Below, piece by piece: positions 1 through 50,461 of a stretch of DNA of 52,593 nt (positions are counted from its first letter, which is position 1; each line of letters begins with the position of its first letter). The notes under the pieces are model-generated. The model was not told where the DNA came from. It saw nothing but the letters and a program-made list of their open reading frames with translations, and ran no database searches. The stretch comes from Parietichytrium sp. I65-24A. Its lineage: Eukaryota; Sar; Bigyra; Thraustochytrida; Thraustochytriidae. A program made the position numbers and the translations under genes. Location: assembly GCA_012862575.1 (NCBI GenBank), contig BLSF01000119.1, positions 1 to 52,593 on the forward strand. The letters are read 5' to 3'.

Positions 1-867
1 GTACTTTGTCTGGCGCGATACCGGTAGTGGCAACCTCCCCTAACGGGTAGAAGTTATATTGATAGTGGCTATTGCCTCATGGTAAGAGTATATGGTCAAC
101 GTGCATAGCACGATAATGTGTGGTGTCCACGTAGCTAGATCTGGAAGTACAGCAGTTTATCTACTCCTTGTTACTACTATTACTCCTTGACAAATTCCTA
201 CTGTTTAGACTCTATCATAGTTTTGCTAAGATTTGCGGTAAGTAGGAATACCTAACGTCAAACTATATGCGCCACGCATAGTTTCGAGGCCTACTCCACT
301 ACTACCCATAACCATACAACCATATACAACCCACAAGAACCTAGCACCCATTAGACGATTCGCTAAATATATGTTTTAGCAGTTCTATAAGAAAGTATAA
401 CCAAACCTTACGCGCACAGGTGTGCTTCAATCGGTACCCTACCTCTCCATACTCTAAAGGCCTATCAATGTCTACGCAGAACTCATAGAACACGGTGTGC
501 ACAGCGACCGTGAAGAGCAAAGCTATGAATTACTGCTATGCATTCTTACTCTGAAGAAGCAAACAATTATACTATTATGTTATTCTATTATGACATTCAC
601 AGTGTATGTTCTGAAATTGATTGAAATTGGGCAAAGCATACACTTATCGCGCACAGCTGGAGAGCAAGAGTGAATTTATATTATACTTTGGTGATATACT
701 CGCTCAGACGAAAGGCGAAAGGCGGTCCAGGTCGCGTCAAGAACATAACAACGGCACATCACTCGGCGCAGTCCAAAGCAGATCGCGTGCGATTTGGGGT
801 CGGCAGCGCGAAGGGGTGCGAAGTTTTGCGCGCCAGTGTGCCGACGGGGGCATTGGTTGCCGAGAAA
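1..867 (+). repeat. 5' flank of array unit A
   Basis: This is the upstream flank of the first unit of the tandem array. It matches 1956-2830 almost base for base, and 7441-8377 and 12141-12703 more loosely. I see no coding region before the ATG at 868. A reading frame before that ATG is open but has no ATG of its own, and small indels change its frame between copies, so it is unlikely to be translated as part of the protein. The stretch at 590-602 ends in CATTCACAG, which in units C and D follows a CTTT-rich tract and looks like a splice acceptor, so a 5'-UTR intron is possible. Confidence 0.75.
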
Positions 868-1954
868 ATGACAGGAGTTGAACCGTCGCGGGCGAGTAGG
901 GCGAGTAGAGTGTCCACGGCGGATTCGGAAACGTCTTACTCGACCGCCAGGGACGCTCGGCACTCTCAGCATTCTCGGCAGGAGAGCTTCGAGAGCGAGG
1001 ACGGAGGCATCCAAGGCAACAACAAGAAACGGGCGTCAAAGTGGTTCTCGCGTTCCAAAAAGGACTTTTATAGCGACCAAGACGATGAGCCGCAGAGCAG
1101 GTGGTCCGGATACAAAAGGGAGAGCTTTGCGGAGTCCCGATCTGATGAGGTGTGCTTCTCGCCGGAGCACATTCAACACATTCGGCGCGGGGAGTTTCTT
1201 TATGATCCCGCAGTCGTAGAGGGTATCCATCGCCTGTCGAGGCGGCTGGCAAACGTGGATCGGTACGTAGAGGTGACCGATGCAGGTGCAAATATCCAGG
1301 GCCGAAATTTGGACATGCTTTTGGCAGACCTGTCAGATTTGTTTAGCCTTACTGCGCTTTTTCACGAGAAAACTCTTGCTCTGAGCGAGACCCACGATGA
1401 CGTGTACAAAAGCATCGGTAGAGGCGCGGGGCACAATCTCACAGCGCTGGACAAGACGAAGAAAATCGGTAAAACGATTTTCTCGATCGTGATATGGGGC
1501 TTAAACACACTACTAACATTGCTGACATGTCGGTGGTTGACGTGGTGCTGCCGCCACACCGAACCAGGACAGTCGGAGCGCACAAAAGTTGCAGTCCCTC
1601 GATCAGTGCAGCGCGACGAGCGCCACAGACAGCTTCTCTTCACCATCAATCTTGGTCTTGGCCTCCTCGACGAGATAACAGATATAGTCTTCATCATCGC
1701 TCTGTACAATAGCGGATTTCACACACTCTTCTATCTGGCCGGGTCGATTTTCATCACGATTGCTCTTTTGCGATATGCTGTGTTGTTCTATTACACGACG
1801 TCTTGGAGTGAATTCGGCCTCCGGCTTCAGCAATTCTGGCGTCTCATCACTTTCAATAGGAGCAAAGACGAGAAACTGGACCTGAATGCCATCTTGGAGA
1901 CCTCATTCACCTTGCTTGGAGGGCTTTTTAGCCCGGTCATCCCCGAGCTTTCAA
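868..1954 (+). CDS. LRR membrane protein, array copy A (3' truncated by gap)
   Basis: This is the first copy of the array family, starting at the ATG of MTGVEPSRASRASR, the only in-frame ATG shared by all four copies. It encodes about 362 residues and then runs into the single N at 1955, so the leucine-rich-repeat block and C-terminal domain are missing from the assembly. What remains matches copy B almost residue for residue. It has a Ser/Arg-rich N-terminus, a conserved block containing HIQHIRRGEFLYDP, a first membrane segment near residues 203-228 and a long hydrophobic stretch near 256-310. The function is unknown. The truncation coincides with an assembly join, so I read it as a sequence gap and not a biological end. 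Confidence 0.8.
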
Positions 1955-1955
1955 N
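1955..1955. other. Assembly gap (single N) inside the tandem array
   Basis: One N separates the middle of copy A's coding region from sequence that restarts at the beginning of the array unit (compare 2-60 with 1956-2010). The gap length is unknown. At least the 3' two thirds of copy A, and possibly whole units, are missing here. Confidence 0.9.
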
Positions 1956-2830
1956 TACTTTGTCTTGTGCGATAGTGGCAACCTCCCCTAACGGGTAGAA
2001 GTTATATTGACTCGGATAGTGGCTATTGCCTCATGGTAAGAGTATATGGTCAACGTGCATAGCACGATAATGTGTGGTGTCCACGTAGCTAGATCTGTAA
2101 GTACAGCAGTTTATCTACTCCTTGTTACTACTATTACTCCTTGACAAATTCCTACTGTTTAGACTCTATCTTAGTTTTGCTAAGATTTGCGGTAAGTAGG
2201 AATACCTAACGTCAAACTATATGCGCCACGCATAGTTTCGAGGCCTACTCCACTACTACACATAACCATACAACCCACAAGAACCTAGCACCCATTAGAC
2301 GATTCGCTAAACATATGTTTTAGCAGTTCTATAAGAAAGTATAACCAAACCTTACGCGCACAGGTGTGCTTCAATCGGTACCCTACCTCTCCATACTCCA
2401 AAGGCCTATCAATGTCTACGCAGAACTCATAGAACACGGTGTGCACAGCGACCAAGCATATACTGTGGTGAAGAGCAAAGCTATGAATTACTGCTATGCA
2501 TTCTTACTCTGAAGAAGCAAAAAATTATACTATTATGTTATTCTATTATGACATTCACAATGTATGTTCTGAATCAATGATTGATTGAAATTGGGCAAAG
2601 CATTCACTTATCGCGCACAGCTGGAGAGCAAGAGTGAATATATATTATACTTTGGTGATATACTCGCTCAGGCGAAAGGCGAAAGGCGGTCCAGATCGCG
2701 TCAAGTATATAGCAGCGGCACGTCACTCGGCGCAGTCCAAAGCAGATCGCGTGCGATTTGGGGTCGGCAGCGCGAGGGGTGCGAAGTTTTGCGCGCCAGT
2801 GTGCCGACGGGGGCATTGGTTGCCGAGAAA
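1956..2830 (+). repeat. 5' flank of array unit B
   Basis: This is a near-identical copy of 1-867 with small indels. One of these is a changed CATTCACAA where the other units have CATTCACAG, which would remove the candidate 5'-UTR splice acceptor. A frame upstream of the ATG at 2831 is open and in phase with the protein in this copy only, because of a one-base difference. It contains no ATG, so I do not include it in the coding region. Confidence 0.75.
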
Positions 2831-5800
2831 ATGACAGGAGTTGAACCGTCGCGGGCGAGTAGGGCGAGTAGAGTGTCCACGGCGGATTCGGAAACGTCTT
2901 ACTCGACCGCCAGGGACGCTCGGCACTCTCAGCATTCTCGGCAGGAGAGCTTCGAGAGCGAGGACGGAGGCATCCAAGGCAACAACAAGAAACGGGCGTC
3001 AATGTGGTTCTCGCGTTCCAAAAAGGACTTTTATACCGACCAAGACGATGAGCCGCAGAGCAGGTGGTCCGGATACAAAAGGGAGAGCTTTGCGGAGTCC
3101 CGATCTGATGAGGTGTGCTTCTCGCCGGAGCACATTCAACACATTCGGCGCGGGGAGTTTCTTTATGATCCCGCAGTTGTAGAGGGTATCCATCGCCTGT
3201 CGAGGCGGCTGGCAAACGTGGATCGGTACGTAGAGGTGACCGATGCAGGTGCAAATATCCAGGGCCGAAATTTGGACATGCTTTTGGCAGACCTGTCAGA
3301 TTTGTTTAGCCTTACTGCGCTTTTTCACGAGAAAACTCTTGCTCTGAGCGAGACCCACGATGAGGTGTACAAAAGCATCGGTAGAGGCGCGGGGCACAAT
3401 CTCACAGCGCTGGACAAGACCAAGAAAATCGGTAAAACGATTTTCTCGATCGTGGCATGGGGCTTAAACACAATACTAACATTGCTGACATGTCAGTGGT
3501 TGACGTGGTGCTGCCGCCACACCGAACCAGAGCAGTCGGAGCGCACAAAAGTTGCAGTCCCTCGATCAGTGCAGCGCGACGAGCGCCACAGACAGCTTCT
3601 CTTCACTATCAATCTTGGTCTTGGCCTCCTCGACGAGATAACAGATATAGTCTTCATCATCGCTCTGTACAATAGCGGATTCCACACACTCTTCTATTTG
3701 GCCGGGTCGATTTTCATCACGATTGCTCTTTTGCGATATGCTGTGTTATTCTATTACACGACGTCTTGGAATGAATTTGGCCTCCGGCTCCAGCAATTCT
3801 GGCGTCTCATCACTTTCAGTAGGAGCAAAGACGAGAAACTGGACCTGAATGCCATCTTGGAGACCTCATTCACCTTGCTTGGAGGGCTTTTTAGCCCGGT
3901 CATCCCCGAGCTTTCAATGAGCATCTTGAAGAAAGAATTCAATGATCGTGAGCCTCTTAAGCAAAATGTGGTCGGAGAGTCCGCTGGGTCGCTCTTTGTT
4001 GACCCCGTCTCATCGCACGCAAAGGGTGTCTACTTTGAGGTATCAAGCGGAAGCTGGATTGCGCTCTCGTTTCTCGTGAAGGACTCGCTTCAGCTGGGCA
4101 TTCAGTTTGCCTTCTTACATTTCGGGTATGACGAGGAAGGGGAGGGCATTGGGACGCAGTTCTGGCTCGCATTTTCTACAACGGTATTTCGAATCATCGA
4201 GCAATTTTTCATTATGCTCTCTGCAAGGTCTGATCGCCCAGCGTTGCGAAATCTCATGATGCTGCGGCAGCTCTCCTTTAATAGTGAAATAGTGGATGGG
4301 CGTGGTCCTGGTAGTCATATTCACGACTTCATGGAGAAAGCGCGGGACAATCTGGGCCGCTCGTTTTGGAACGATTTGCATCCGTCTTTGTTAGAAGAGG
4401 GGCCCAACTTGAAAGAGGTCCAGGACAAAAACCTATGTGCCCAGATAGCCTGCAATGGCATCGTTGGAAAAACTCGTGTTCTTGATACTCGCCACTTCTA
4501 TCAAGAAATTCGCTCGATTGAGCTGAACAACTTGTCTTTCGATGGGCCAAACGAGGGTGAAGCGCTCCTTAGATTCCTTGCCAAATGTACTCAGGTGCAG
4601 CGCGTCGAGCTGAGCTTCACCTCGTTTGGGGACGCCAGAGAAAACCCTTATGTCTTGGAAACTCTCGCGAAGTATTGCCCGAGATTGGACCAGCTCTCAC
4701 TCGACAGCTGTGAGTGGGTGAGCAATGAAAGCCTTTGTTTTTTCATTGAACGGTGTGGATCAAACCTGGTTCGCCTTTCCCTTAGGGACCTATCATGTCT
4801 GTGCGATGAGACGCTCATCACCATCGGCAAGTACTGCCCCACTCTTCAGGAGCTCATGATTGACCGGACCCCTGACTCCGAAGAGAAGCATGGTTCCCAT
4901 AGCGTCACTGGCTCCAGGAGGTATATCCAATTGACAGAAGCTGGATTTAAGGCACTTGCAAAAGGTTGCTCCAGGTCACTCTTGCGGCTGACAATGAGCT
5001 ATGTTGACTACAACGGGAGAGAGGAACATCTTGTTAAGCTGACTCAGAATAAGTTTCTGAGGGAGATATCCTTTGCGGGAATGAAAAATATTAAAGACCG
5101 CTTCCTTGTGCAAAGCTTTAAGGAAGAGAGAAAATATCCTCCTGGTCCGTCCTCATGCTTACGTATCGCGCGATTCACTGACACGGCCGTTGGAGAAAAG
5201 GAGGACGGGCTTCGGCTGCTTACCAGGAGGGCTCTACTGTTGGAAGATCTCGCTCTTGGAGGGACCAGGACTAAAAGTACTGGAGTCAAAGAACTCCTCA
5301 ACTCGTCGAAAAGTATTCGCCACATTGAATTCTACAACCCGCACGAGCTTGCCTTCTCCTATGCAAAGCTTCTGTCCCTCCACATAGAGGACATGGAGGA
5401 GCAGCTCTCGAAGATGGATGCCATCAACTCAAGAACGAGGCACACGCAGCAAGGAAAGAAAAAATTGATTTCGTTGCCCAGCGTCAATGCCGGATATCCT
5501 GATGACGACATCGCAGACACCTCAGCTGTTGCTGTGATCGTTCCGATTGGGGAAGCTAACTCGCCAGCCTTTGGTGATGGCGAAGATGTACTTGAAGCAT
5601 TTAGAAGTGTTCTCGAGGAGTTTGAGCTGGAGTCCAGAGATAGCATCGTTTTGACCCTACAGGCTCGCCTCAGTAGAATAAGTCTGCCTGAGAAGGAGAA
5701 GGCGAACTATGAGTACAAATTGCTGCTGGCGGTGATTGGTCTGCTAGACGCGATTCGAACCCAACTCTACCGAGTCAAACACATCAAAAATACTGAGGTG

Positions 5801-6676
5801 CTCGATGCGGCAGGGAAAGAATATGTGATTTCTAAATTTAGAATCCGTGCCGACTTTCTTGCTGGCGGTTCACTGGGGGATAAACAAGCCGATCAACAAT
5901 TGCGTCTAAGCACCCTCTCTCTTCCGTCTCTGCTTCCGTTTGGTTTATTGAGCACCAAGCGCATCACCATCCTCGTCGACGCAGATGCGGGCCGGTACAG
6001 ATTTTTGGGCAAAGGCAACGAAGCTAGCGGACGAATCTCCAATATTCACAAGATCACCATTAAGGCGAGCGACGACAAGGAACGTGGAGCGAGGCTTGGC
6101 GCTCTTTCTACTCGCCATTTGGCCATCCCACAAAACGCGCATTACTTTTGCTTCGCGTACCCGGTTGACACAAAAGAGGGCACAGAAGTTGACGCAAATG
6201 AGGAGGTAGAGGGATGCAGTGACTTTGGAGAGAGCAGCCTCCAAGGTTACAGGCATGCGGCCAATCGCCTGAAGCTTTGGGGCGGATTTCTGTACTTTGA
6301 CAAGAATAAAGCATTTCTCTCCGCGAACGTGCTTGTGCCCGGAGTTGCACTGTCTTTCAACGGACCGCTTCGCCTCTCAGTACCGACTCTTCGAAAGCTC
6401 AAGCAGAGGTGGGTAGACGTCACCATTGAGGAAATGCAACGCCCTTACGCTGATGAGGGAAAGCAGCTCCGCTTCGCATGGATCTTTCCCGACGAATTCC
6501 CAAACGACCCGAACATTAAAGCGCATAATCACCATGGAGGCTTCGCATACTCTCTACGCAATATACAAGGCGGGAAAAAGATCAAGACGAAGCGTCTTGA
6601 CGCGGTTTTCTTCGCACTGGCCGACCTTGACAGTGTCTTCCTTCAGGACAAAGATGGCGAAGAATCTTTCCCGTGA
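2831..6676 (+). CDS. LRR membrane protein, array copy B (intact)
   Basis: This is the only uninterrupted copy, 1,281 residues from MTGVEPSRAS. I do not recognise the family. From the N-terminus it has a Ser/Arg-rich, probably cytosolic region (1-90), a conserved helical region (about 90-200), a membrane segment (about 203-228), a longer hydrophobic region likely to hold two or three helices (256-310), and two more hydrophobic segments (about 408-432 and 444-465). A leucine-rich-repeat block follows (about 560-733), of the Cys-containing Amn1/F-box-LRR style, with motifs such as CPRLDQLSLDSC and CPTLQELMIDRT. The C-terminal region of about 450 residues has a conserved stretch around RLKLWGGFLYF. 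The stop codon TGA overlaps a perfect splice donor (CC|GTGAGTAT), so the last exon may lie at 6766-6925. The layout suggests a membrane-anchored recognition protein, which is inference. Confidence 0.85.
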   Translation: MTGVEPSRASRASRVSTADSETSYSTARDARHSQHSRQESFESEDGGIQGNNKKRASMWFSRSKKDFYTDQDDEPQSRWSGYKRESFAESRSDEVCFSPEHIQHIRRGEFLYDPAVVEGIHRLSRRLANVDRYVEVTDAGANIQGRNLDMLLADLSDLFSLTALFHEKTLALSETHDEVYKSIGRGAGHNLTALDKTKKIGKTIFSIVAWGLNTILTLLTCQWLTWCCRHTEPEQSERTKVAVPRSVQRDERHRQLLFTINLGLGLLDEITDIVFIIALYNSGFHTLFYLAGSIFITIALLRYAVLFYYTTSWNEFGLRLQQFWRLITFSRSKDEKLDLNAILETSFTLLGGLFSPVIPELSMSILKKEFNDREPLKQNVVGESAGSLFVDPVSSHAKGVYFEVSSGSWIALSFLVKDSLQLGIQFAFLHFGYDEEGEGIGTQFWLAFSTTVFRIIEQFFIMLSARSDRPALRNLMMLRQLSFNSEIVDGRGPGSHIHDFMEKARDNLGRSFWNDLHPSLLEEGPNLKEVQDKNLCAQIACNGIVGKTRVLDTRHFYQEIRSIELNNLSFDGPNEGEALLRFLAKCTQVQRVELSFTSFGDARENPYVLETLAKYCPRLDQLSLDSCEWVSNESLCFFIERCGSNLVRLSLRDLSCLCDETLITIGKYCPTLQELMIDRTPDSEEKHGSHSVTGSRRYIQLTEAGFKALAKGCSRSLLRLTMSYVDYNGREEHLVKLTQNKFLREISFAGMKNIKDRFLVQSFKEERKYPPGPSSCLRIARFTDTAVGEKEDGLRLLTRRALLLEDLALGGTRTKSTGVKELLNSSKSIRHIEFYNPHELAFSYAKLLSLHIEDMEEQLSKMDAINSRTRHTQQGKKKLISLPSVNAGYPDDDIADTSAVAVIVPIGEANSPAFGDGEDVLEAFRSVLEEFELESRDSIVLTLQARLSRISLPEKEKANYEYKLLLAVIGLLDAIRTQLYRVKHIKNTEVLDAAGKEYVISKFRIRADFLAGGSLGDKQADQQLRLSTLSLPSLLPFGLLSTKRITILVDADAGRYRFLGKGNEASGRISNIHKITIKASDDKERGARLGALSTRHLAIPQNAHYFCFAYPVDTKEGTEVDANEEVEGCSDFGESSLQGYRHAANRLKLWGGFLYFDKNKAFLSANVLVPGVALSFNGPLRLSVPTLRKLKQRWVDVTIEEMQRPYADEGKQLRFAWIFPDEFPNDPNIKAHNHHGGFAYSLRNIQGGKKIKTKRLDAVFFALADLDSVFLQDKDGEESFP

Positions 6677-6925
6677 GTATCAACTCTGGAGCCCAATTGA
6701 TAGTCGTCGTTTGAAGCAACTTCTCCAATGCCCAACCACACGGATTCTTTTCGCTCTTTCCGCAGGAAGACCTCTACCAGCAGATCGGAAAGGACGCCAT
6801 GCATGGCGTTCCCCGAGCTCACGCGGCTCTCGCCAATTCCACAAATCTACCTCCACAGGATCCGTCTTTGCTCCCTCACCGAGAGAACAAGCGGAAAGGT
6901 GGCGTTTTGCCGGCAAAGGGGGTGA
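6673..6925 (+). other. Candidate intron and terminal exon of copy B
   Basis: GTGAGTAT at 6673 and a pyrimidine-rich CTCTTTCCGCAG ending at 6765 would define a 93-nt intron, the same size as proven-looking introns elsewhere in the window. Splicing restores a CCG codon and continues with KTSTSRSERTP to a TGA at 6923-6925, adding about 53 residues. Unit D has the same sites at the same distance. All three frames of the putative exon are open over about 150 nt, so the sequence alone does not prove which frame, if any, is used. Confidence 0.45.
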
Positions 6926-7440
6926 GGCTTCCAACGCAAATGATATCTTTCCCAGCTACGTCATCCGCCAGAGATGTCATACAACTCACATCCAAAGCCG
7001 GCAATCCAGAAGCCTCCAAATAACATAACATGTGATGTGTAAAAAAAAATATGATGGTGTTAATAATACAGTCAAACAAAGGTGATGACAACAAATCAAA
7101 CAATATCGATTACAAGTTTGCATCTTCCTCACTGTCACTCGACTAGATCAGCCAAAGAGCTGCAGCAGACCCAAAACAGGACGACGCAGACAAGCAAGCA
7201 GGCAAGCAAGACGCGCAAGCGAACAAGAACACCCATAACTTTCCAACCAACCCTTCAATTCATGATACTTTCTGTCACTTCATTGAACAAGAGCAACAAA
7301 ATTCAAATTCAACAAATAAAAATTAGGCTCTTGAATCACCCTGAACATTCAAGGATTGCCCTGCAAAAAATTTTGCGTTCCCACCAGGTATAGCGCCAAG
7401 TAATAACTATTATTTAAAAAGCTACTCTACTACTACTAAC
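6926..7440 (+). repeat. 3' flank of array unit B
   Basis: This spacer of about 515 bp has no convincing gene. Its first part (to about 7130) matches the region after copy D (16915-17120), including an A-rich run and a shared ATACAGTCAAACAAAGGTG. It therefore belongs to the array unit and is likely 3' UTR and terminator sequence. The remainder is AC-rich and unique. Confidence 0.6.
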
Positions 7441-8377
7441 AAATTCCTTCGCGGAGCTGTCTGGCGCGATAGCAACCTCCCCTCACGGGTAGAAGTTAGA
7501 TAAATCGTGGCTATTGTCTCACGGTAAGAGTATGTGGCCAACATGCGTAGCACGATAACGTTTAGTAACCACTTATCTAGATCTCTAATGACGGCACATT
7601 GTCTACTCTTGGTTACTACTACTACTCCTTCCAGCTCGCACTGTGCAATGCCTATTGTTTAGACTATGACATCATACTGTGGTGAGTTTCGATGGCTAGT
7701 CCACTACTAACCAGAAGCAAATGACCGCGCTTCCAAAGATGAGTCCCTATAAGTATGCAATTGCACAGCTCTCTACGCAAGTCTGACCAAACCTTACATG
7801 CACAGACATGCTACAATCTGTCCCCTACCGTCCCCCTAACTCTACCTACTCCAAATGCCTATTTGTCTCTACGCAGTACTCGTAGAACACGGGGTGGACA
7901 GGGTGCACACGGCGCGAAGGCTAGTCACCATTACCAAGCATATACTGCGGCGAAGAGCAAAGCGACGAAATACTACTAAGTGTGTAACTAATGCATTCTT
8001 ACGTTGAAAGAAGCACACAAATTATGTTCCACTGTCATACTATTATTGCTATAATCGTTCATTTCTTTCTTTCTTTCTTTCATTCACAGTGCATCTTTAG
8101 AATCGATCGAATCAGTCAATGATGGATTGATTGAAATCGAGCAAAGCAAACACTTATCGAGCGCAGCTGGAGAGCAAGAGTGAACATATAGTATACTTTG
8201 GTGATCTACTCACTCAGACGAAAGGCGAAAGGCAGTCCAGGTCGCGTCAAGAACATAGCAGCGGCACATCACTCGGCTCAGACCAAAGCAGATTGCGTGC
8301 GATTTGGGGTCAGCAGCGAGAAGGGGAGCGAAGTTTTGCGCGCCAGTAGGCCGACGGGGGCATTGGTTGCCAAGAAA
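7441..8377 (+). repeat. 5' flank of array unit C
   Basis: This is a diverged copy of the array 5' flank, recognisable from CTGTCTGGCGCGATAG onward. It includes a (CTTT)n microsatellite at about 8062-8084 directly followed by CATTCACAG, a good splice-acceptor-like context about 290 bp before the start codon. The same microsatellite is present in unit D but not in units A and B, which have a TATTCTATTATGA tract instead. No gene is seen in it. Confidence 0.7.
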
Positions 8378-11300
8378 ATGACAGGAATTGAACCGTCGCG
8401 GGCGAGTAGGGCGAGTAGACTGTCCACGGCGGATTCGGAAACGTCGTACTCGACCGCCAGTCACGCTCGGCACTCTCAGTATTCTCGGCAGGAGAGCTTC
8501 GAGAGCGAGGACGGAGGCATCCAAAGCAACAACAAGAAACGGTCTGATGAGGTGTGCTTCTCGCTGGAGCACATTCAGCACATTCAGCGCGGGGAGTTTC
8601 TTTATGATCCCGCAGTTGTAGAGGGTATCCACCGCCTGTCGAGGCGGCTGGCAAACTTGGATCGGTACGTGGAGGTGACCGAGGCAGGTGCAAATATCAA
8701 GGGCCGAAACTTGGACATGCTTGTCGCAGACCTGTCAGATTTGTTTAGCCTTACTGCGCTTTTTCAGGAGAAAACTCTTGCTCTGAGCGAGACCCACGAT
8801 GAGGTGTACAAAAGCATCGGAAGAGACGTGGGGGACAATCTCACAGTGCTAAAGATGATCATGATGATTCTTGTAATGATTTTATCGATGATGATGGGAG
8901 CATTTTTAGGTCCCTTGCCATGGCTGACATATCTGTATTGGACGCGGATCTCCCGCGGCGAACCAGTGCAGTGGACGAGGTGCTGCCGCCGCACCAAATC
9001 GGAGCGCACAAAAGTTGCAGTCCCTCGATCAGTGCAGCGCGGCAAGCGCCACAGACTGCTTCTCTTCGTTATGAATCTTGGTCTTGGCCTCCTCGACGAG
9101 ATAACAGATATACTCTTCATCTTCTCTCTGTCCAATAGGCGATTCCACACACTCTCCAAATTGGCCTGGTGGACTTTCGTCATTATGGTTTGCTTGCGAC
9201 TTGCTGTGTTGCTCTATTACACGACGTCTTGGAGTGAATTCGACCACCTGTTCCAGCAATACAAGCGTCTCATCACTTTCAATATGAGCAAAGACGAGAA
9301 ACTGGACCTGATTTTCTTTGGATTGCTTTCAAACCCGGTCACCTCCGAGCGTCCAATGAAGAAAAAATTCAATGATCGCGAGCCTCTCAAGCAAAACGTG
9401 GTCGGAGAGTCCGCTGGATCGCTTTTCGTTGACCCCGTCTCATCGCACGCAAAGGGTGTCTACTTCGAGGTATCAAGCGGAAGCGGGATTGCGCTCTCGT
9501 TTCTCGTTAAGGACGTGATTCAACTTTGCATTCAAGTTGCCTTCTTCTTTGCGGTAGAGAAGGACGTTGGGATTGATTTCTTCCTCACAATTATTTCCAC
9601 GGTATTACGAATTCTCGAGCTACTTTTCACTGTGTTCGCTGCATGGTCTGATCGCCCAGCGTTGCGAAATCTCATGGTGCTGCGGCAGCTCGCCTTTAAT
9701 AGTGAAATAGTGGATGGGCGTGGCCCTGGTAGTCATATTCACGACTTCATGAAGAAAACGTCCCAGCCCGGCGAGCTGGCCCGCTCGTTTTGGAACGATT
9801 TGCATCCGTCTTTGTTGAAGGAGGGGCCCAACTTGAAAGAGGTCCAGGACAAAAACCTATATGCCCAGAAACCCTGCAATTGCATCGTTGGAGAAACTCG
9901 TGTTCTTGATACTCTCCACTTCTATCAATCAATTCGCTCGATTGAGCTAAACAACGTGTCTTTCGATAGACCGAACGAGGGTGAAGCGCTCCTTAGATTC
10001 CTTGCCAAATGTACTCAGGTGCAGCGCGTCGAGCTGAGCTTCACCTCGTTTGGGGACGCCAGAGAAAACCCTTATGTCTTGAAAACTCTCGCGGAGAATT
10101 GTCCGAGATTGGATCAGCTCTCACTCGACAGCTGTGAGTGGGTGAGCAATGAAAGCCTTTGTTTTTTCATTGAACGGTGTGGATCAAACCTGGTTCGCCT
10201 TTCCCTTAGGGACCTATCATGTCTGTGCGATGATACGCTCACCACCATCGGCAAGTACTGCCCCACTCTTCAGGAGCTCATGATTGACCGGACCCCTGAC
10301 TCCGAAGAGAATCATGGTTTCCATAGCGTCACTGGCTCCAGGAGGTATATCCAATTGACAGAAGCTGGATTCAAGGCACTTGCAAAAGGTTGCTCCAGGT
10401 CACTCTTGCGGCTGACAATGAGCTATGTTGACTATAAGGAGACAAAGAAACACTACAAGGAGACAAAGAAACATCTTGTTTGTCCCCTTGTTAAGCTGAT
10501 TCAGAATAAGTTTCTGAGGGAGATATCCTTTGCGGGAATGAAAAATATTGAAGACCGCTTCCTTGTACAAAGCTTTAAGGAAGAGAGGAAATATCCTCCT
10601 GGTCCGTCCTCATGCTTACGTATCGCGCGATTCACTGACACAAACGTTGGAGAAAAGAAGGACGGGCTTCGGCTGCTTACCACGAAGGCTCCACTGTTGG
10701 AAGAACTCGCTCTTGGAGGGACCAAAACTAAAAGTACTGCAGTCAAAGAACTCCTCAACTCGTCGAAAAGTATTCGCCACATTGAATTCTACGACCCGCA
10801 CGAGCTTGCCTTCTCCTATGCAAAGCTTCTGTCCCGCCACATAGAGGATATGGAGGCGCAGCTCTCGAAGATGGATGCCATCAACTCAAGTACGAGGCAC
10901 ACGCAGCAAGGAAAGAAAAAATTGATTTCGTTGCCCAGCGTCAATGCCGGATATCCTGATGACGACATCGCAGACACCTCAGCTGTTGCTGTGATCGTTC
11001 CGATTGGGGAAGCTAACCCGCCAGCCTTTGATGATGGCGAAGATTTACTTGAAGCATTTAGAAATGTTCTCGAGGAGTTTAATCTGGAGTCCAGAAATGG
11101 GATCTTTTTCGCCCTACAGGCTCGCCTCAGTGAAACAAATCTGCCTAAGAAGGCGAGGGCGAACTATGAGTACAATTTGCTGCAGGCGGTGATTGGTCTG
11201 CTAGACGCGATTCGAACCCAACTCTATCGAGTCAAACGCATCAAAAATACTGAGGTGCTCGATCCGCCAGGGAAACGAGATGTGATTTCTACATTTAGAA

Positions 11301-12139
11301 TCCGTGCCGACTTTCTTGCTGGCGGTTCAAAAAAAGACGATCAACAATTGCCTCGAAGCAAGCTCGCTCTTCCGTCTCTGTTTCCGTTTGGTTTATTGAG
11401 CACCAAGCGCATCAACATCCTCGTCGACGCAAAAAGTGGCAAGTACAGAGTTTTGGGCAAAAGCAACGAAGCTGGCGGACGAATCTCCAATATTCACGAG
11501 ATCACCATTAAGTCGAGCGACGACAAGGAACGTGGAGCGAGGCTTGGCGCTCTTTCTACTCGCCACTTGGCCATCCCACAAGACGCGCATTACTTTTGCT
11601 TCGCGTACCCGGTTGGCACAGAAGAGGACACAAAAAAAAAAGAGGACACAAACGTTGACAAAAAAGAGGGGGTTGAGAGATGCAGTGACTTTTGGGAGAG
11701 CAGCCTCCAAGGTTACAAGCATGCGGCCAATCGCCTGAAGCTTTGGGGCGGATTTCTGTACTTTGGCAAGAATAAAGAATTTCTCTCCGCGAACGTGCTT
11801 GTGCCCGGAGCTGCACTGTCCTTCAACGGACCGCTTCGCCTCTCAATACCGACTCTTGGAAAGCTCAAGCGGAGGTGGGTAAACGTCACCATTGAGGAAA
11901 TGCAACGCCCTTACGATGGTGAGGGAAAGCAGCTCCGCTTCGCATGGATCTTTCCCGACGAATTCCCATACGACCCGTACATTTACGCGCATAATCACCA
12001 TGGAGGCTTCGCATACTCTCTACACAATAAACAAGGCGGGAAAAAGATCAAGACGAAGCGTCTTGACGCGGTTTTCTTCGCACTGGCCGACCTTGACAGT
12101 GTTTTCCTTCAGGACAAAGATGGCGAAGAATCTTTCCCG
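8378..12139 (+). CDS. LRR membrane protein, array copy C (diverged membrane region)
   Basis: This third copy has 1,254 codons from MTGIEPSRAS up to the N at 12140, which falls exactly at the last conserved codon before the stop. Compared with copy B, 36 residues (108 bp) are cleanly missing between KKR and SDEVCFS. The first membrane segment is replaced by an unrelated Met/Ile-rich stretch (MMILVMILSMMMGAFLG). The region before the KKKFNDREPLKQN motif is also shortened. By contrast the LRR block is nearly identical to those of copies B and D. A seven-residue duplication (YKETKKH twice) follows the LRR block and is shared with D. A run of ten A at about 11632-11641 keeps the frame open here but is nine A in copy D. 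The function is unknown. The copy is probably functional unless the gap hides damage. Confidence 0.82.
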
Positions 12140-12140
12140 N
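12140..12140. other. Assembly gap (single N) inside the tandem array
   Basis: One N joins the last codon of copy C to sequence equivalent to 7811 onward, which lies within the 5' flank of a unit. The 3' flank of C and the start of the D flank are missing. Additional units could be hidden here. Confidence 0.9.
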
Positions 12141-12703
12141 AATCTGTCCCCTACCGTCCCCCTACCTCTACCTACTCCAAATGCCTATTTGTCTCTACGC
12201 AGTACTCGTAGAACACGGGGTGGACAGGGTGCACACGGCGCGAAGGCTAGTCACCATTACCAAGCATATACTGTGGCGAAGAGCAAAGCGACGAAATACT
12301 ACTAAGTGTGTAACTAATGCATTCTTACATTGAAAGAAGCACACAAATTATGTTCCACTGTCATACTATTATTGCTATCATCGTTCATTTCTTTCTTTCT
12401 TTCTTTCATTCACAGTGCATCTTTAGAATCGATCGAATCAATCAATGATGGATTGATTGAAATCGAGCAAAGCAAACACTTATCGCGCGCAGCTGGAGAG
12501 CAAGAGTGAACATATAGTATACTTTGGTGATCTACTCACTCAGACGAAAGGCGAAAGGCAGTCCAGGTCGCGTCAAGAACATAGCAGCGGCACGTCACTC
12601 GGCGCAGTCCAAAGCAGATTGCGTGCGATTTGGGGTCAGCAGCGAGAAGGGGAGCGAAGTTTTGCGCGCCAGTAGGCCGACGGGGGCATTGGTTGCCGAG
12701 AAA
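12141..12703 (+). repeat. 5' flank of array unit D (partial)
   Basis: This is almost identical to 7811-8377, the flank of unit C, including the (CTTT)n tract and the CATTCACAG that follows it. The first part of the flank is missing because of the gap at 12140. Confidence 0.75.
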
Positions 12704-15700
12704 ATGACAGGAATTGAACCGTCGCGGGCGAGTAGGGCGAGTAGGGCGAGTAGACTGTCCACGGCGGATTCGGAAACGTCGTACTCGACCGCCAGGGACG
12801 CTCGACACTCTCAGCATTCTCGACAGGAGAGCTTCGAGAGCGAGGACGGAGGCATCCAAGGCAGCAACAAGAAACGGGCGTCAATGTGGTTCTCGCGTTC
12901 CCAAAAGGACTTTTTTAGCGACCAAGACGATGAGCCGCAGAGCAGGTGTTCCGGATCCAAAGGGAAGAGCTCTGCAGAGTCCCGATCTGATGAGGTGTGC
13001 TTCTCGCCGGAGCACATTCAGCACATACGGCGCGGGGAGTTTCTTTATGATCCCGCAGTTGTAGAGGGTATCCACCGCCTGTCGAGGCGGCTGGCAAACT
13101 TGGATCGGTACGTAGAGGTGACCGAGGCAGGTGTAAATATCCAGGGCCGAAACTTGGACATGCTTCTCGAAGACCTGTCAGATTTGTTTAGCCTTACTGC
13201 GCTTTTTCAGGAGAAAACTCTTGCCCTGAGCGAGACCCACGATGAGGTGTACAAAAACATCGGTAGAGGCGCGGGGCACATTCTCACAGCGCTGGACAAG
13301 ATTAAGAAAATCGGTAAAACCATTTTCTCGATCGTGATATGGGTCTTAAGCACACTACTAACATTGCTGACATGTCGGTGTTGGACGTGGTGCTGCCGCG
13401 GCACCGAACCAGAGCAGTCGAAGCGCACAAAAGTTGCAGTCCCTCGATCAGTGCAGCGCGACAAGCGCCACAGACAGCTTCTCTTCACTATCAATCTTGG
13501 TCTTGGCCTCCTCGACGAGATAACAGATATAGTCTTCATCAAGGCTCTGTACAATAGCGGATTCTGCGATTACTTCACCGCGGCCACGGTCGTTTTCGCC
13601 TTGATTGCTTTTTTGCGATGTGCTGTGTTGTTCTATTACACGACGTCTTGGAGTGAATTCGGCCACCGGTTCGGCCACCGGTTCCAGCAATTCTTGCGCC
13701 TCATCACTTTCAAGAGGAGCAAAGACGAGAAACTGGACCTGAATGCCTTCTTGGAGACCTCATTCACCTTGTTCGGATGGCTTCTTAGCCCGGTCATCCC
13801 CGAGCTTTCAATGAGCATCTTGAAGAAAGAATTCAATGATCGTGAGCCTCTCAAGCAAAATGTGGTCGGAGAGTCCGCTGGGTCGCTCTTTGTTGACCCC
13901 GTCTCATCGCACGCAAAGGGTGTCTACTTTGAGGTATCAAGCGGAAGCTGGATTGCGCTCTCGTTTCTCGTGAAGGACTTGGCTCAGCTGGTCATTCAGT
14001 CTGTCTTCTTTGGGCAAGGAGGCGCGGTAGGGAAGGACATCAAGGTGCAGTTCTGGCTCGCAATTTCTACAACGGTATGTCGAATTCTCGAGCAACTTTT
14101 CATTATGATCGCTGCATGGTCTGATCGCCCAGCGTTGCGAAATCTTATGATGCTGCGGCAGCTCTCCTTTAATAGCAAAATAGAGGATGGGCGTGGCCCT
14201 GGTAGTCATATTCAAGACTTCATGAAGAAAACGTCCCAGCCCGGCGAGCTGACCCGCTCGTTTTGGAACGATTTGCATCCATCTTTGTTGAAGGAGGGGC
14301 CTAACTTGAAAGAGGTCCAGGACAAAAACCTATGTGCCCAGATGCCCTGCAATGGCATCGTTGGAAAAACACGTTTTCTTGATACTCGCTACTTTTATCA
14401 AGAAATTCGCTCGATTGAGCTAAACAACGTGTCTTTCGATAGACCAAACGAGGGTATAGCGCTCCGTGATTTCCTTGCCAAATGTACTCAGGTGCAGCGC
14501 GTCGAGCTGAGCTTCACCTCGTTTGGGGACGCCAGAGAAAACCCTTATGTCTTGAAAACTCTCGCGGAGAATTGTCCGAGATTGGATCAGCTCTCACTCG
14601 ACAGCTGTGAGTGGGTGAGCAATGAAAGCCTTTGTTTTTTCATTGAACGGTGTGGATCAAACCTGGTTCGCCTTTCCCTTAGGGACCTATCATGTCTGTG
14701 CGATGATACGCTCACCACCATCGGCAAGTACTGCCCCACTCTTCAGGAGCTCATGATTGACCGGACCCCTGACTCCGAAGAGAATCATGGTTCCCAAAGC
14801 GTCACTGGCTCCAGGAAATATTTCCAATTGACAGAAGCTGGATTTGAGGCACTTGCAAAAGGTTGCTCCAGGTCACTCTTGCGGCTGACAATGAGCTATG
14901 TTGACTATAAGAAGACAAAGAAACACTACAAGGAGACAAAGAAACATCTTGTTTGTCCCCTTGTTAAGCTGATTCAGAATAAGTTTCTGAGGGAGATATC
15001 CTTTGCGGGAATGAAAAATATTGAAGACAGCTTCCTTGAGCAAAGCTTTGAGGAAGAGAGGAAATATCATCCTGGTCCGTCCTCATGCTTACGTATCGCG
15101 CGATTCACTGACACAGACGTTGGAGGGAAGACCGCGCTTTGGCTGCTTACCACGAAGGCTCCACTGTTGGAAGAACTCGCTCTTGGAGGGACCAAAACTA
15201 AAAGTACTGCAGTCAAAGATCTCCTCAACTCGTCGAAAAGTATTCGCCACATTGAATTCTACAACCCGCACGAGCTTGCCTTCTCCTATGCAAAGCTTCT
15301 GTCCCGCCACATAGAGGATATGGAGAAGCAGCTCTCAAAGATGGATGCCATCAACTCAAGTACGAGGCACATGCAGCAAGGAAAGAAGAAATTGATTTCG
15401 TTGCCCAGCGTCAATGCCGGATGTCGCGATGACGACATCGCAGACACCTCAGCTGTTGCTGTGATCGTTCCGATTGGGGAAGCTAACCCGCCAGCCTTTG
15501 ATGATGGCGAAGATTTACTTGAAGCATTTAGAAATGTTCTCGAGGAGTTTAATCTGGAGTCCAGAGAAAAAATCAATTCTGCTCTAAAGGATCGCCTCAA
15601 AAGAAGAAGTGTGCCTGAGAAGGAGAAGGCGAACTATTATGAGTACGAATTGCTGCTGGCGGTGATTCTTCTGCTAGATGCAATTCGAACCCAACTCTAC

Positions 15701-16665
15701 CGAGTCAAACACATCAAAAATACTGAGGTGCTCGATCCGCCAGGGAAAGGAGGTGTGCTTTCTGAATTTAGAATCCGTGCTGGCATTCTTGCTGGCGATA
15801 CAAAAAAAGACGATCACCAATTGCCTCGAAGCACCCTCTCTCTGGGGGATAAAAAAGCCGATCAACAATTGCCTCGAAGCAAGCTCGCTCTTCCGTCTCT
15901 GTTTCCGTTTGGTTTATTGAGCACCAAGCGCATCAACATCCTCGTCGACCCAAAAATGGGCAAGTACAGATTTTTGGGCAAAGGCAACGAAGCTAGCGGA
16001 CGAATCTCCAATATTCACAAGATCACCATTAAGGCGAGCGACGACAAGAAACGTGGAGCGAGGCTTGGCGCTCTTTCTACTCGCCACTTGGCCATCCCAC
16101 AAGACGCGCATTACTTTTGCTTCGCGTACCCGGTTGGCACAGAAGAGGACACAAAAAAAAAGAGGACACAAACGTTGACAAAAAAGAGGGGGTTAAGAGA
16201 TGCAGTGACTTTTGGGAGAGCAGCCTCCAAGGTTACAAGCATGCGGCCAATCGCCTGAAGCTTTGGGGCGGATTTTTGTACTTTGGCAAGAATAAAGAAT
16301 TTCTCTCCGCGAACGTGCTTGTGCCCGGAGTTGCACTGTCTTTCAACGGACCGCTTCGCCTCTCAGGAAAGACTCTTAAAAAGCTCAAGCGGAGGTGGGT
16401 AGAGGTCACCATTGAGGAAATGCAAAAACCTTACGATGATGAGGGAAAGCAGCTCTGCTTCGCATGGATCTTTCCCGACGAATTCCCAAATGACCCGAAA
16501 ATTAAGGCGCATAATCGCCATGGAGGCTTCGCATACGCTGTATACGATAAACAAGGCGGGGAAAAGACCATGGCGAAGCAAGATTTTAATCCGGTTTTCT
16601 TCGCACTGGCCGACCTTGACAGTGTCTTCCTTCAGGAAAAAGATGGCGAAGAATCTTTCCCGTGA
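12704..16665 (+). CDS. LRR membrane protein, array copy D (single-base frameshift)
   Basis: This fourth copy starts at MTGIEPSRAS. The frame is open to about 16152, where a run of nine A (16153-16161) replaces the ten A of copy C. Translation then shifts and ends at 16258, while the original frame continues from the same point to the TGA at 16663-16665. With the frame intact the protein would be about 1,320 residues, the longest of the family. The N-terminal and membrane regions resemble copy B (the 36-residue segment missing in C is present). From the LRR block onward it resembles copy C, including the doubled KETKKH unit. A segment near 15800-15890 carries both a C-like KKDD..LPRS and a B-like LGDK.ADQQL motif in tandem. 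The frameshift may be a homopolymer sequencing error or a real pseudogene. Confidence 0.75.
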
Positions 16666-16914
16666 GTATAAACTCGGGAGCCCAATGGATAGTCGTCGTT
16701 TGAAGCAACTTCTCCAATGCCCAACCACAAGGATTCTTTTCACTCTCTCCGCAGGAAGACCTCCACCAGCAGATCGGAAAGGACGCCATGCATGGCGTTC
16801 CCCGAGCTCACACGGCTCTCGCCAATTCCACCAATCTACCCCCACAGGATCCGTTTCTGCTCCCTCACCGAGAGAACAATCGGAAAGGTAGCGTTTAGCC
16901 GGCAAAGGTGGTGA
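16662..16914 (+). other. Candidate intron and terminal exon of copy D
   Basis: This is the same arrangement as behind copy B. A GTGAGTAT donor at 16662 overlaps the stop, and an acceptor CTCTCCGCAG ends at 16754, giving a 93-nt intron. The exon would run KTSTSRSERTP to a TGA at 16912-16914. Both splice sites are conserved in two paralogues, which is the main support. Confidence 0.45.
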
Positions 16915-17479
16915 GGCCTCCAACGCAAATGATTTCTTTCCCAGTCACGTCATCCGCCAGAGATGTCATACAACTCACATCCAAAGCCGCAATCCAGAAG
17001 CCTCGAAATAACATAACATAATAATAATAACATAACATGTGTAAAAAAAAATGGTCCAAGTAATACAGTCAAACAAAGGTGTGATAACAACAAACCAAAC
17101 AAAAGCGATCACAAGTTCCACTCTCACCATCGCTCAACTACTATCCCTCACTTAGGCAATTCTCTAGCGCTTCAAATCTAACCGTTCGAAAGACTTGTGC
17201 CACATTACACAAACACACACACAGTCGCGCATACTTCCGCATACACGGTCACATACTGCACGTAACATTTGCCATTTGCGAGGACAGCATAAGCGTCCTC
17301 CTTTTGGTGGACGCAAAGGCTTGCATTTGGCTGTGCGGAACGTCCCTTCGGTCACGAAACGATCTTGCCAGGGACACGTCCGACTTTGGGTCGCTTTCAT
17401 TCCCAACTCACACTCCGGGCCCACGGAGGCGGGGACACTGGGACTCTGGGACTCTGGGACGCGCTCGGACGCCGCGCAC
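16915..17479. other. Right edge of the array and upstream region of the PDZ-PA gene
   Basis: Homology to the array 3' flank stops at about 17120-17150, which marks the right boundary of the array. The rest is a unique AC-rich promoter region. A threefold GGGAC(A/T)CT repeat at about 17432-17460 sits 20 bp before the next start codon. No further gene is seen. Confidence 0.55.
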
Positions 17480-19336
17480 ATGCGCAGCAGACTGTGGCGC
17501 GCAGCCGCCGCTCTACTGTGGTGTGCACTCTGCTGCGCAGCGTTGGACGCCAAGTTTCAACCGCCCAAGTTGGAGTCGCAGCTGAAGAAACATCGACACA
17601 GAGACGCCAACGCAGAGAGGAATGGCATTGGCAGTGGGAGGCCAACGAGATTGTCGCCGTCTAGATCCAGCAACGATAAGGCCAACAACGCTGATGTGGC
17701 GAAGAATGACAACTATAATGCCAACGACGTAGACAAAGCCAAGTCGAGCAGCGCGAGCAGCGGGCACAGTCATGAGCACAGGCTCGTGTCCAACTCAGAG
17801 GCAGCAGTGGAGTTCAGGATTGTGCAGGACCCGGAGCTGGAACCTGGCGAGTATTGCATGCAGTTCACGAGCCGCGGGCCGCTGGGCCTGCAATTCGATG
17901 GCCAGTTGAGGGTCATGGCGTTCGCGCAGCTCGCCGGTGGAAAAGCGGGTCCCGCGCAGAAGAGCGGTGCCATAGAGGTCGGTGATAGGCTCGTGCAAGT
18001 GAACGGGGACAGAATTGACCGGCTCACCACCTCGGACGCATACCAAGTTCTCGCCGAAGCCGCTGAGGCGAGCGAATCGCGAGGCGTTCCGCGAACATTC
18101 GTGTTTGCTAGAGGCGCAGGGACCTCTGAAGAAAGACAACTTTCGGAGGAGAGCTTGCGGATTGATGCCGGAGGCCACATTGAGCACGTGGATGTCTACA
18201 ATTCGCGCAAGGAAGAGGCATCCATGCATGTCATGTTGTCGAAGGGCATCGGCAAGTCTCCGACGTCTTGCAAAAAGCGCAAGCTTGTGCTGGTCGACCC
18301 TCCTGATGGGTGCGACGCGGCGCTGCGAAACAAGCCGGAGGAGATGTACGAAGCCATTGCTGTGGTAGAGCGCGGGGGATGCTCTTTCTACTGGAAAGCG
18401 CTCAATCTTCAGATGCACAACGCATCGGCGGTGCTCGTGGTGAACAATGAGGACACAGTTTTTCAGATGCGCCACGACGAAGACCTCGACAACGACGTGA
18501 GAATACCTGCAGCGATGATTGGCTCGTATGACGGGAATATGCTCATTGAGATGCAGCGAAAAAATCTTTACGATTTCAACAGCCCATTAGACGTCCGCAT
18601 GGTAGTTTCCGAGAAGTGCTTTGAAATGGAATTCGAGGAGCTCATGGATGAGCTGGTCGGCTCTACACCAGACAAGGCCAAGTTACAGCGCTCACCGCCA
18701 AAACCGACGGATGTGTTAGACACGAAACATCGCCTCTACGGCGTGCTCGCCCCATCAGGTATTTTGAAAAGCACCTCTTTGAACACAAATCAAGGCAGTG
18801 CTGTGGCTGCTCGGTCGTTCGACTTCTTGGCAACCTCGTTCAGTGGCCACTTACCGGTAGGAGAACAACTTCAAGCGAGCGTGAGGATGGAGTTTGATAC
18901 ACAGGTCTACGTGTGGTCCGGGTGGGAGAGATTGCATCTGGACGGCCTCATGCACCGAGTTCTGCGACTCCAAGCAGAGCCCAATATCAAAGCCATCGTC
19001 CTGGTGTCGCCAAACACCACCTTGTGGAGAATCGAGGGTGATCATCATCCCACTCAAACGCGGATCGCTGTTGTGATGGTGACACGGGAGGCCGCGAGTA
19101 GCTTGACAGAGGAGGGCACAAAAGTCACCTTCTTGCCTACCCATCGCATCATGCACCGTTGGAATGAACTCCATTTTGTTGCTCATCCTGCGAATATGCC
19201 GAAAGATCCAAAGATAGCTAAAAAGGTCTTCACAAGGCTTCAGAAGGCTGACGTTATGCAGGATGAGGACTCGCAGTGCTGGCAAAAACATTTTGAAGCT
19301 GTGCGCAGTCAAGCACTCGGGGCAGTCCAAGTGTAG
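17480..19336 (+). CDS. Secreted PDZ and PA (protease-associated) domain protein
   Basis: The protein has 618 residues starting at MRSRLWRAAAALLWCALC, which reads as a cleavable signal peptide. The frame is open upstream but has no suitable ATG closer to a signal peptide. A basic, Asn/Ser-rich linker follows. Residues about 110-212 look like a PDZ domain, with a carboxylate-binding-loop-like GPLGLQF and the later IEVGDRLVQVNGDRI motif. Residues about 246-370 look like a PA domain (VVERGGCSFYWKAL, then VLVVNNED). No protease catalytic domain is visible, and the last 250 residues are of unknown function. It probably acts in the secretory pathway or outside the cell, binding proteins by both modules. 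PA domains usually sit in proteases or vacuolar sorting receptors, so either association is possible. No membrane anchor is apparent. Confidence 0.75.
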   Translation: MRSRLWRAAAALLWCALCCAALDAKFQPPKLESQLKKHRHRDANAERNGIGSGRPTRLSPSRSSNDKANNADVAKNDNYNANDVDKAKSSSASSGHSHEHRLVSNSEAAVEFRIVQDPELEPGEYCMQFTSRGPLGLQFDGQLRVMAFAQLAGGKAGPAQKSGAIEVGDRLVQVNGDRIDRLTTSDAYQVLAEAAEASESRGVPRTFVFARGAGTSEERQLSEESLRIDAGGHIEHVDVYNSRKEEASMHVMLSKGIGKSPTSCKKRKLVLVDPPDGCDAALRNKPEEMYEAIAVVERGGCSFYWKALNLQMHNASAVLVVNNEDTVFQMRHDEDLDNDVRIPAAMIGSYDGNMLIEMQRKNLYDFNSPLDVRMVVSEKCFEMEFEELMDELVGSTPDKAKLQRSPPKPTDVLDTKHRLYGVLAPSGILKSTSLNTNQGSAVAARSFDFLATSFSGHLPVGEQLQASVRMEFDTQVYVWSGWERLHLDGLMHRVLRLQAEPNIKAIVLVSPNTTLWRIEGDHHPTQTRIAVVMVTREAASSLTEEGTKVTFLPTHRIMHRWNELHFVAHPANMPKDPKIAKKVFTRLQKADVMQDEDSQCWQKHFEAVRSQALGAVQV

Positions 19337-22221: not shown

Positions 22222-22971
22222 TCATGTGGACTCAAGTGCTCTAGATGAGGTCGACGCTGGGGCCTGCCGCGGGCTCTCTGCGGGGTTCTCGTCGTCAAAC
22301 CGAAAGCTATTCTTCCGACGAAGCGAGGCCGGGGCTGGCTTCTGGCAAGTTTTCGGGTCACTATCAATAACTAGGCAAGGCCTTTTGCTGGCAACAGGCC
22401 TCGTGTAGTTTGTGTGGACGATGATGGTCATTCCGAGCCATCCGATCACTCCACCGATGCAAGTTACGATGTACCAAGCCGCCACCCACTTTGGCGTGAG
22501 CCATCGATCTTCCGGTGCGATAATCGCTTCTTTCGAGGCGTAGATGTGCACAGTGGCGCTAGAGAGGAAGAGCCCCAGGACCACACTTGCAAGCCACGCT
22601 CCGATTGCGATCTTCTCTGCCCACTCTTCGTCCAGCTCGCACGTGCAATGTGAAAGGGACAGTTTGCAAGTGCTTGTTCTACCGCAAGAAATACCACAGA
22701 GGTCTTCGCAGCACTCCGCTGGAGCGATAGAGAAGACATCCTCCTTTCCTCTGCTCATGCACTTGCGCGGCCCACTTGCGTGCAGCTTCCTGCGAGCCAC
22801 ATGCGCAAACACATTGACGCTTTGCTCAGACTCCTGCCCGCCTTCTAGCTCCTCCGCCAAGAGAAGCCGCTGACCACCTATCTTCACGCGACCCTCGCTG
22901 TCAGCAGACACCGCAGCTGCCATGAAGGCAAGCAGCATCGCGGCGCTCTTCAGCCTTCTTGTCCCTTGCAT
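22222..22971 (-). CDS. Small Cys-rich two-TM membrane protein (paralogue 1)
   Basis: The protein has 249 residues starting at MQGTRRLKSAAMLLAFMAAA, a signal peptide. The predicted extracellular part contains CCEDLCGISCGRTSTC followed by KLSLSHCTC, with spacing CC-x3-C-x3-C-x5-C-x6-C-x-C. Two membrane segments follow (IAIGAWLASVVLGLFLSSA and AAWYIVTCIGGVIGWLGMT), then a basic, Ser/Pro-rich tail that is probably cytosolic. The neighbouring gene at 23562 on the other strand has exactly the same cysteine spacing and topology, so the two form a divergent paralogous pair. I do not recognise a known family. A TCAATCT-type repeat (22993-23020) lies directly upstream of the start. Confidence 0.72.
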   Translation of the reverse strand: MQGTRRLKSAAMLLAFMAAAVSADSEGRVKIGGQRLLLAEELEGGQESEQSVNVFAHVARRKLHASGPRKCMSRGKEDVFSIAPAECCEDLCGISCGRTSTCKLSLSHCTCELDEEWAEKIAIGAWLASVVLGLFLSSATVHIYASKEAIIAPEDRWLTPKWVAAWYIVTCIGGVIGWLGMTIIVHTNYTRPVASKRPCLVIDSDPKTCQKPAPASLRRKNSFRFDDENPAESPRQAPASTSSRALEST

Positions 22972-41960: not shown

Positions 41961-42066
41961 ATTTGGTTACGAGCACATTGAGAAGGCCGTATATATAATT
42001 AGAGTACGAAAAGCAGCGCTGTCAATATGCAATAGTATTTTGCGAACGAATGTATTTTGCGAATGA

Positions 42067-50460: not shown

Positions 50461-50461
50461 N
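50461..50461. other. Assembly gap (single N)
   Basis: This N separates the two exact 580-bp copies. Collapsing them would remove 581 bases and leave one continuous sequence. Confidence 0.9.

Follow-up and report, generated by a model that had tools for sequence, protein, structure and literature searches.

What kind of protein is encoded in the first 17 kb of contig BLSF01000119.1 of the thraustochytrid Parietichytrium sp. I65-24A, and in how many genes? The window, the whole 52,593-nucleotide stretch analysed here, is the complete scaffold (C119) of a 42.5-Mb assembly of 172 contigs. For this organism, no match to light-harvesting families was found, and no match to PfaA exceeded the cut-off. 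A first-pass annotation had described four consecutive tandem copies of a roughly 1,300-residue membrane protein with leucine-rich repeats (LRRs), belonging to a family it could not assign and suspected of a role in recognition or surface variation. We find at least two adjacent genes for a large membrane protein that appears to join half of an XK-related fold to LRRs, has fast-changing membrane helices and is possibly a sensor or scrambler; we give this reading as a whole a probability of about one half. Judged from sequence, the protein architecture is real and unusual, and the family may have a role in recognition.

Gene architecture and copy number

Four related open frames, c1 to c4, lie on the plus strand within the first 17 kb of the scaffold. 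One protein is common to the long open frames 2585-6676, 8192-12211 and 12518-16258 and to the partial frame 625-1998; residues are numbered here on P0001, the open frame 2585-6676. Protein identity to c2 is 82% for c3, 84% for c4, 79% for the c4 tail and 98% for c1, and copy-to-copy DNA alignments of 1.3-2.5 kb show 88-96% identity, far above chance. The surroundings of the first ATG are alike in all of c1, c2, c3 and c4 except for one base, and the length counted from it is 1,281 aa in c2 and 1,254 aa in c3. The order of domains is a Ser/Arg head, a conserved helical part, hydrophobic helices, Cys-type LRRs, a linker and a C-terminal domain; the head, hydrophobic segments, LRRs and a C-terminal domain named in the first-pass annotation are present. 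The features of the cluster are as follows.

868-1954 (+): c1, 5' half with the head, the N-terminal helical part and the first of the XK-like helices, ending at a scaffold join; probable c2 allele, from piece comparison
1955-1955 (no strand): single-N scaffold join with overlapping flanks, from flank alignment
2831-6676 (+): c2, complete, 1,281 aa
2831-3109 (+): c2 Ser/Arg-rich head, residues 83-175
3110-3370 (+): c2 conserved N-terminal helical part, residues 176-262, also in the paralogue on contig C11
3401-3505 (+): c2 extra hydrophobic segment TM0, residues 273-307, highly variable
3596-4228 (+): c2 presumed single XK-like repeat, residues 338-548, from hydropathy and analogy to XKR9, no structure
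4505-5374 (+): c2 LRR block, Cys type, residues 641-930
5375-5908 (+): c2 linker, residues 931-1108, with a patch of variation in 1022-1041
5909-6673 (+): c2 conserved C-terminal domain, residues 1109-1363, no family match
8378-12139 (+): c3, full length, 1,254 aa, last codon at the join
12140-12140 (no strand): single-N scaffold join; the left end (c3) aligns with the right start (c4)
12704-16665 (+): c4, full length, frameshifted by a missing base in an A run near 16150; c3 allele or third paralogue
13100-14100 (+): c4 block 12-25% diverged from c3, membrane region

The ends of two copies coincide with the joins. The end of c1 is the single-N join at 1955 and not a gene end, and c3 stops at the single N at 12140, where c2 and c4 show the first base of the stop codon. 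The A run of c4 near 16150 has one base fewer than that of c3, which causes the frameshift; the other frame is then open to 16662.

The window contains three single Ns (1955, 12140 and 50461), and the left flank of each recurs in its right flank. At 1955 the overlap extends over 1.96 kb at 96.3% identity by blastn (98.1% over 1,936 ungapped columns), and the piece 1-1954 and the start of the piece 1956-12139 begin at most one base from the same homologous point. At 12140, c3 aligns with c4 over 4.3 kb. At 49881-51041 an exact 580-bp repeat (100%) stands on either side of the N at 50461 and represents a contig overlap that was left unmerged. The ungapped piece 1956-12139 holds c2 and c3, and only these two copies are contiguous.

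As a control for the joins we used 24 samples of 10 kb, taken elsewhere in the assembly on other contigs; pieces are truncated where a sample ends, so that some overlaps may be missed. They contain nine single-N joins, five with overlapping flanks and four with no overlap. Divergence across six control overlaps (the five elsewhere and that at 50461) is 0-3.5%, with 250-base windows reaching 8%. The corresponding values are 1.9% and up to 3.6% for c1/c2, and 7.8% and up to 24.5% for c3/c4. Because the window joins and 5/9 control joins have overlapping flanks, and because the c1/c2 divergence lies within the control range, we take c1 as a probable c2 allele that stayed a contig of its own. It is plausible that c4 is a diverged allele of c3, but a genuine repeat containing a gap would give the same picture. 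The gene count is at least two, with c2 and c3 certain, and is uncertain beyond that. Of the four consecutive copies of the first-pass annotation these two are secure, and the copy number was probably inflated by the assembly. Contigs that overlap and are joined by one N can mimic a tandem array.

Domains and the likely link to XK-related proteins

A six-frame search of the genome recovered one further gene with the same architecture, a single-copy paralogue on contig C11. It encodes 1,257 aa and shares 26% identity with the window protein overall and 44% in the C-terminal domain. The membrane segment of this paralogue matches positions 10-168 of the 337 in the Pfam XK-related family (PF09815; XKR8, XKR9, CED-8), that is, the N-terminal half of the profile, in a single open frame. 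The score is 26.7 bits for the segment, 25.1 in the genome search and 21.8 for the whole protein (cut-off 24.8). When the window copies were compared with a profile made from C11 and three other proteins on contigs C34, C10 and C144, the match had a probability of 92% (E 5e-7).

According to the description of XKR9 in PMC8298096, each half of that protein has four membrane helices and one partly inserted helix, and transmembrane helix 3 (TM3) bends at a PQL motif. The C11 helices fit the order of an XKR9 repeat by eye, a likeness of hydrophobic segment order mapped by analogy, and the C11 paralogue keeps the TM3 motif (as VPQL). The membrane part of the window protein can be assigned tentatively, indirectly and by sequence, to half of the XK-related fold through the C11 paralogue, and the window copies likely carry the same single XK-like repeat. 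They have hydrophobic segments for one repeat and one extra segment, TM0, before the LRRs. No segment of C11 exceeds the hydropathy threshold at the place of TM0; because TM0 is extra relative to C11, the side of the membrane on which the N-terminus lies is left open.

Several results weigh against this assignment. The same profile comparison without C11 falls to a probability of 1% over 33 columns, and comparing the window copies together with C11 against the remaining three proteins gives 46% over 43 columns. Because the link fades once C11 is removed or moved, the XK membership of the window copies rests on C11. PF09815 gives no match to any window copy directly, and no XKR was found among Protein Data Bank (PDB) sequences with either the membrane profile (A2) or the C11 segment. 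In the window copies the P of PQL is replaced, giving LQL in c2, IQL in c3 and AQL in c4. Just two C11 regions, 216-242 and 321-342, pass a hydropathy of 1.5, so that the helix map is by analogy. The characteristic XKR pair of repeats is absent, C11 covering one half of PF09815 and the window copies one repeat. The AlphaFold and Foldseek check proposed by the first-pass annotation was carried out on window-only alignments of four rows and gave models with a pLDDT of 36.3 and 36.7, which are unusable; Foldseek on the low-confidence membrane model returned 22 matches, the best at E 0.85 and no XKR among them, and was not used.

The window protein is related to XKR through C11, and we do not class it as an XKR because it departs from that family in both the number of repeats and the PQL motif. 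The proteins of the window and C11 also differ from XKR in that LRRs and a new C-terminal domain are attached to the membrane part, and scrambling here is only putative. Among the open-licence PMC papers listed for XK-related proteins together with protists or LRRs, not one describes an XK-LRR fusion in its title or the start of its abstract.

The three other proteins (L002 on C144, L003 on C10 and L004 on C34) are further XK-like candidates and suggest that this organism has a larger family of single-repeat proteins. C144 and C10 reach 23.5 and 22.7 bits to the same half of PF09815, both under the cut-off of 24.8. C34, a similar short protein, was recognised by eye through the motif after a weak match (E 0.004). 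Like the window protein, each shows a single XK-like half in the frame that was read; they differ from one another in the part before it, which is long and Ser/Thr/Pro-rich in C144, long and Cys-rich in C10 and neither Ser/Thr/Pro-rich nor Cys-rich in C34. The frames read contain no LRR or C-terminal domain, and introns could hide additional parts.

The LRRs are of the Cys type found in F-box/LRR proteins such as FBXL2, FBXL17 and SKP2: phmmer matches them to the PDB chains of FBXL17 (E 7.5e-6) and FBXL2 (E 7e-5), and the C11 protein has a Pfam LRR_6 match. They differ from those proteins in standing behind a membrane domain and in the lack of an F-box: no Pfam F-box model matches P0001-P0003 or P0005 with E up to 1, or the C11 protein with E up to 5.

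The C-terminal domain proved shorter than the 450 residues first given to it. Its conserved part spans about 255 residues (1109-1363), and residues 931-1108 form a poorly conserved linker. Pfam gave no match for it, with E limits of 1 for P0001 and 5 for the C11 domain, and its profile gave two chance-level matches in the PDB (E 0.43 and 0.91). Its alignment has no relative in viral or bacterial/archaeal contigs, and in its own genome, the only eukaryote covered by the searches for relatives, it has no match beyond the C119/C11 family at E up to 1, a level at which weak ones can escape. Nor did tblastn of P0001 against phages, or a search of viral contigs using the membrane alignment, find relatives. 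When the genome was searched with the C11 protein, the matches lying outside query residues 484-813 (the LRRs and the stretch just before them) fell on C119, C11 and C34 only, with 37 of the 41 candidates scored. The first description of an unrecognised membrane-LRR family is supported insofar as the window copies have no Pfam match above the cut-off and no relative of the C-terminal domain was found outside the C119/C11 family; the membrane part is linked to XK-related proteins via C11.

Divergence of the membrane helices and its explanations

Over residues 82-1201, 263 of the 1,120 positions vary among c2, c3 and c4. The four most variable 20-residue blocks in the membrane part, 282-301 (15), 362-381 (16), 502-521 (13) and 522-541 (13), together hold 57 variable sites in 80, a choice of blocks made after seeing the variation. 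Outside it, block 1022-1041 is variable at 13 of its 20 positions. Within the XK-like repeat, TM2-TM4 are hypervariable, and TM1 and the loop 451-490 are conserved. The LRR block 642-921 varies at 40/280 positions and its core, 702-741, at 0/40. The variation among copies noticed in the first-pass annotation is real, and is densest in the membrane helices and not in the LRRs.

Hypervariable patches picked post hoc are biased towards high nonsynonymous counts. A fairer, if weaker, test uses segments defined by an average hydropathy above 1.5, or above 1.2 in a looser variant. The proportion of nonsynonymous differences (pN) in the segments at 1.5 is 0.285 for c2/c3, 0.187 for c2/c4 and 0.329 for c3/c4, against 0.078, 0.075 and 0.073 elsewhere; at 1.2 the values are 0.230, 0.143 and 0.269 against 0.069, 0.074 and 0.063. 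Within the segments pN exceeds the synonymous proportion (pS) for all pairs of c2, c3 and c4 at both thresholds. In c2/c4 the segments are enriched in pN (p 4e-7) and not in pS (p 0.62; 7.7% versus 7.6% elsewhere). The membrane helices are far more diverged than the rest of the protein. This suggests, without proving, positive selection on them.

The changed helices also tend to stay hydrophobic. Retention of hydropathy has p < 0.05 in 5/8 segment-by-copy tests against random nucleotide change and in 7/8 against random codons. Variable sites show helix periodicity in a 100-degree test for residues 363-387 (p 0.0096) and 494-514 (p 0.026). Of two control segments, one has no variable site and the other gives p 0.14. 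The periodicity is lost in the wider stretch 357-392 (p 0.064) and in 525-548 (p 0.38), and a helix face of variation is suggestive only.

Other observations weigh against selection on the helices. Segment pS is also raised in the comparisons with c3 (0.237 and 0.217, against 0.058 and 0.072 elsewhere), so that part of the signal is attributable to a segment that is older or has undergone conversion. The nonsynonymous excess over neutral at threshold 1.5 has p 0.28 (c2/c3), 0.021 (c2/c4) and 0.082 (c3/c4), and at 1.2 p 0.056, 0.037 and 0.11, respectively. The segments of c1/c2 show no excess, with pN 0.034 and pS 0.074 from seven changes. Whole-gene dN/dS among c2, c3 and c4 is 1.11-1.30, close to 1, and that of the LRR block 0.69-1.32, indistinguishable from 1; the regions of these comparisons were drawn by hand, and TM2 codons with two or three base changes can inflate dN/dS.

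The reading we favour would work as follows. The single XK-like repeat may pair with itself and so rebuild the two-repeat shape of XKR, while the LRRs and the C-terminal domain would lie in the cytosol as a fixed unit that handles a partner or a signal. The variable helix faces would touch lipid or a changing partner. The protein could then be a polymorphic membrane sensor or scrambler, serving self/non-self recognition or resistance to a membrane-directed agent. If true, a unicellular eukaryote has a membrane module related to lipid scramblases at half its usual size and fused to LRRs, and it is suggested that in such a protein the membrane helices may evolve fastest and possibly be polymorphic. 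A two-repeat XKR could have been assembled from single-repeat proteins of this kind, which also bear on the origin of the fold.

A narrower proposal treats c3 and c4 as the alleles of a single diploid locus, hyperpolymorphic and balanced, with recognition specificity placed mainly in the membrane-spanning helices of the half-XKR/LRR protein and not in an ectodomain or the LRRs. Their DNA divergence would fit this, being mostly 1.6-6% around a membrane domain at 12-25%, as would the tendency of the altered helices to remain hydrophobic. We regard this proposal as unlikely. To be set against the favoured reading, c3/c4 divergence also peaks at 12-13% at two places outside the membrane part, near 15600 (linker) and at the 3' end, two adjoining windows of a control overlap reach 8%, and the coding-region distance of c4 to c3 is about that to c2. 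Moreover, c4 is a mosaic that resembles c3 upstream and c2 in the membrane region. The same mosaic would suit an ordinary small paralogue family of three or four true tandem genes, in which the helices drift because constraint on them is relaxed, gene conversion homogenises the rest and no recognition role is needed. The raised synonymous divergence of the hydrophobic segments with c3 and a whole-gene dN/dS close to 1 agree with such a family, and a true repeat with a gap also yields overlapping flanks at 12140, four of the nine sampled joins being without overlap. Its count of true copies is weakened by the frequency with which single-N joins duplicate their flanks in this assembly (5/9), and simple drift is hard to reconcile with the excess of pN over pS in the segments of all three pairs or with the enrichment of c2/c4 in pN but not in pS. 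We consider this alternative possible, at less than even odds.

The first-pass annotation had named transcript data showing all copies to be silent pseudogenes as a refutation; a further rival is a dead cluster whose divergence is noise. The one-base frameshift of c4, the truncation of c1 and a dN/dS near 1 could be read in this way. At the level of sequence the copies argue otherwise: the compared frames hold no stops where 10.4, 8.9 and 9.4 would be expected without selection, and the pairwise coding indels are multiples of three in 10/11, 9/10 and 12/14 cases (31/35 in all), the out-of-frame ones being the c4 frameshift and end effects. Because there are no stops against 9-10 expected and most indels are in frame, neutral decay is rejected for the compared frames. 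The truncation of c1 falls on an assembly join, and the loop 451-490, chosen after seeing the alignment, looks constrained (c2/c3, one nonsynonymous and seven synonymous differences, p 0.00024). Decay of the whole cluster is very improbable. Also improbable, though less so, is a system for surface variation or recognition with the LRRs as ligand readers. The combination of a membrane protein, LRRs and variable copies recalls one, but the LRR block varies less than the full protein does, its dN/dS cannot be told from 1, and a surface position is an assumption. Unlike antigenic-variation or recognition arrays with variable LRRs, the cluster has two certain genes, not many, and an invariant LRR core.

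Neighbouring features of the scaffold

Directly after the cluster, at 17168-19336 (+), lies a gene for a protein with PDZ and protease-associated (PA) domains. Two adjacent frames for small proteins, 22225-23007 (-) and 23442-24215 (+), share by eye a Cys-rich pattern (CC, CG, CTC) ahead of hydrophobic stretches, and neither has a Pfam match at E 0.001. The same holds for a 776-aa open frame at 38962-41289 (-), which is acidic by eye and contains an internal 171-bp tandem duplication (1.9 copies, 91% matches). Two stretches of 146-148 bp, 27854-27999 (+) and 41838-41985 (-), are about 95% identical in opposite orientation; each has a 114-base Rfam tRNA match (50.6 bits) not called by ARAGORN, the length of which may mean an intron. 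A 1,086-aa open frame at 32190-35447 (-) has a match to Frizzled/Smoothened-like seven-transmembrane proteins (E 8e-9) after a long N-terminal part.

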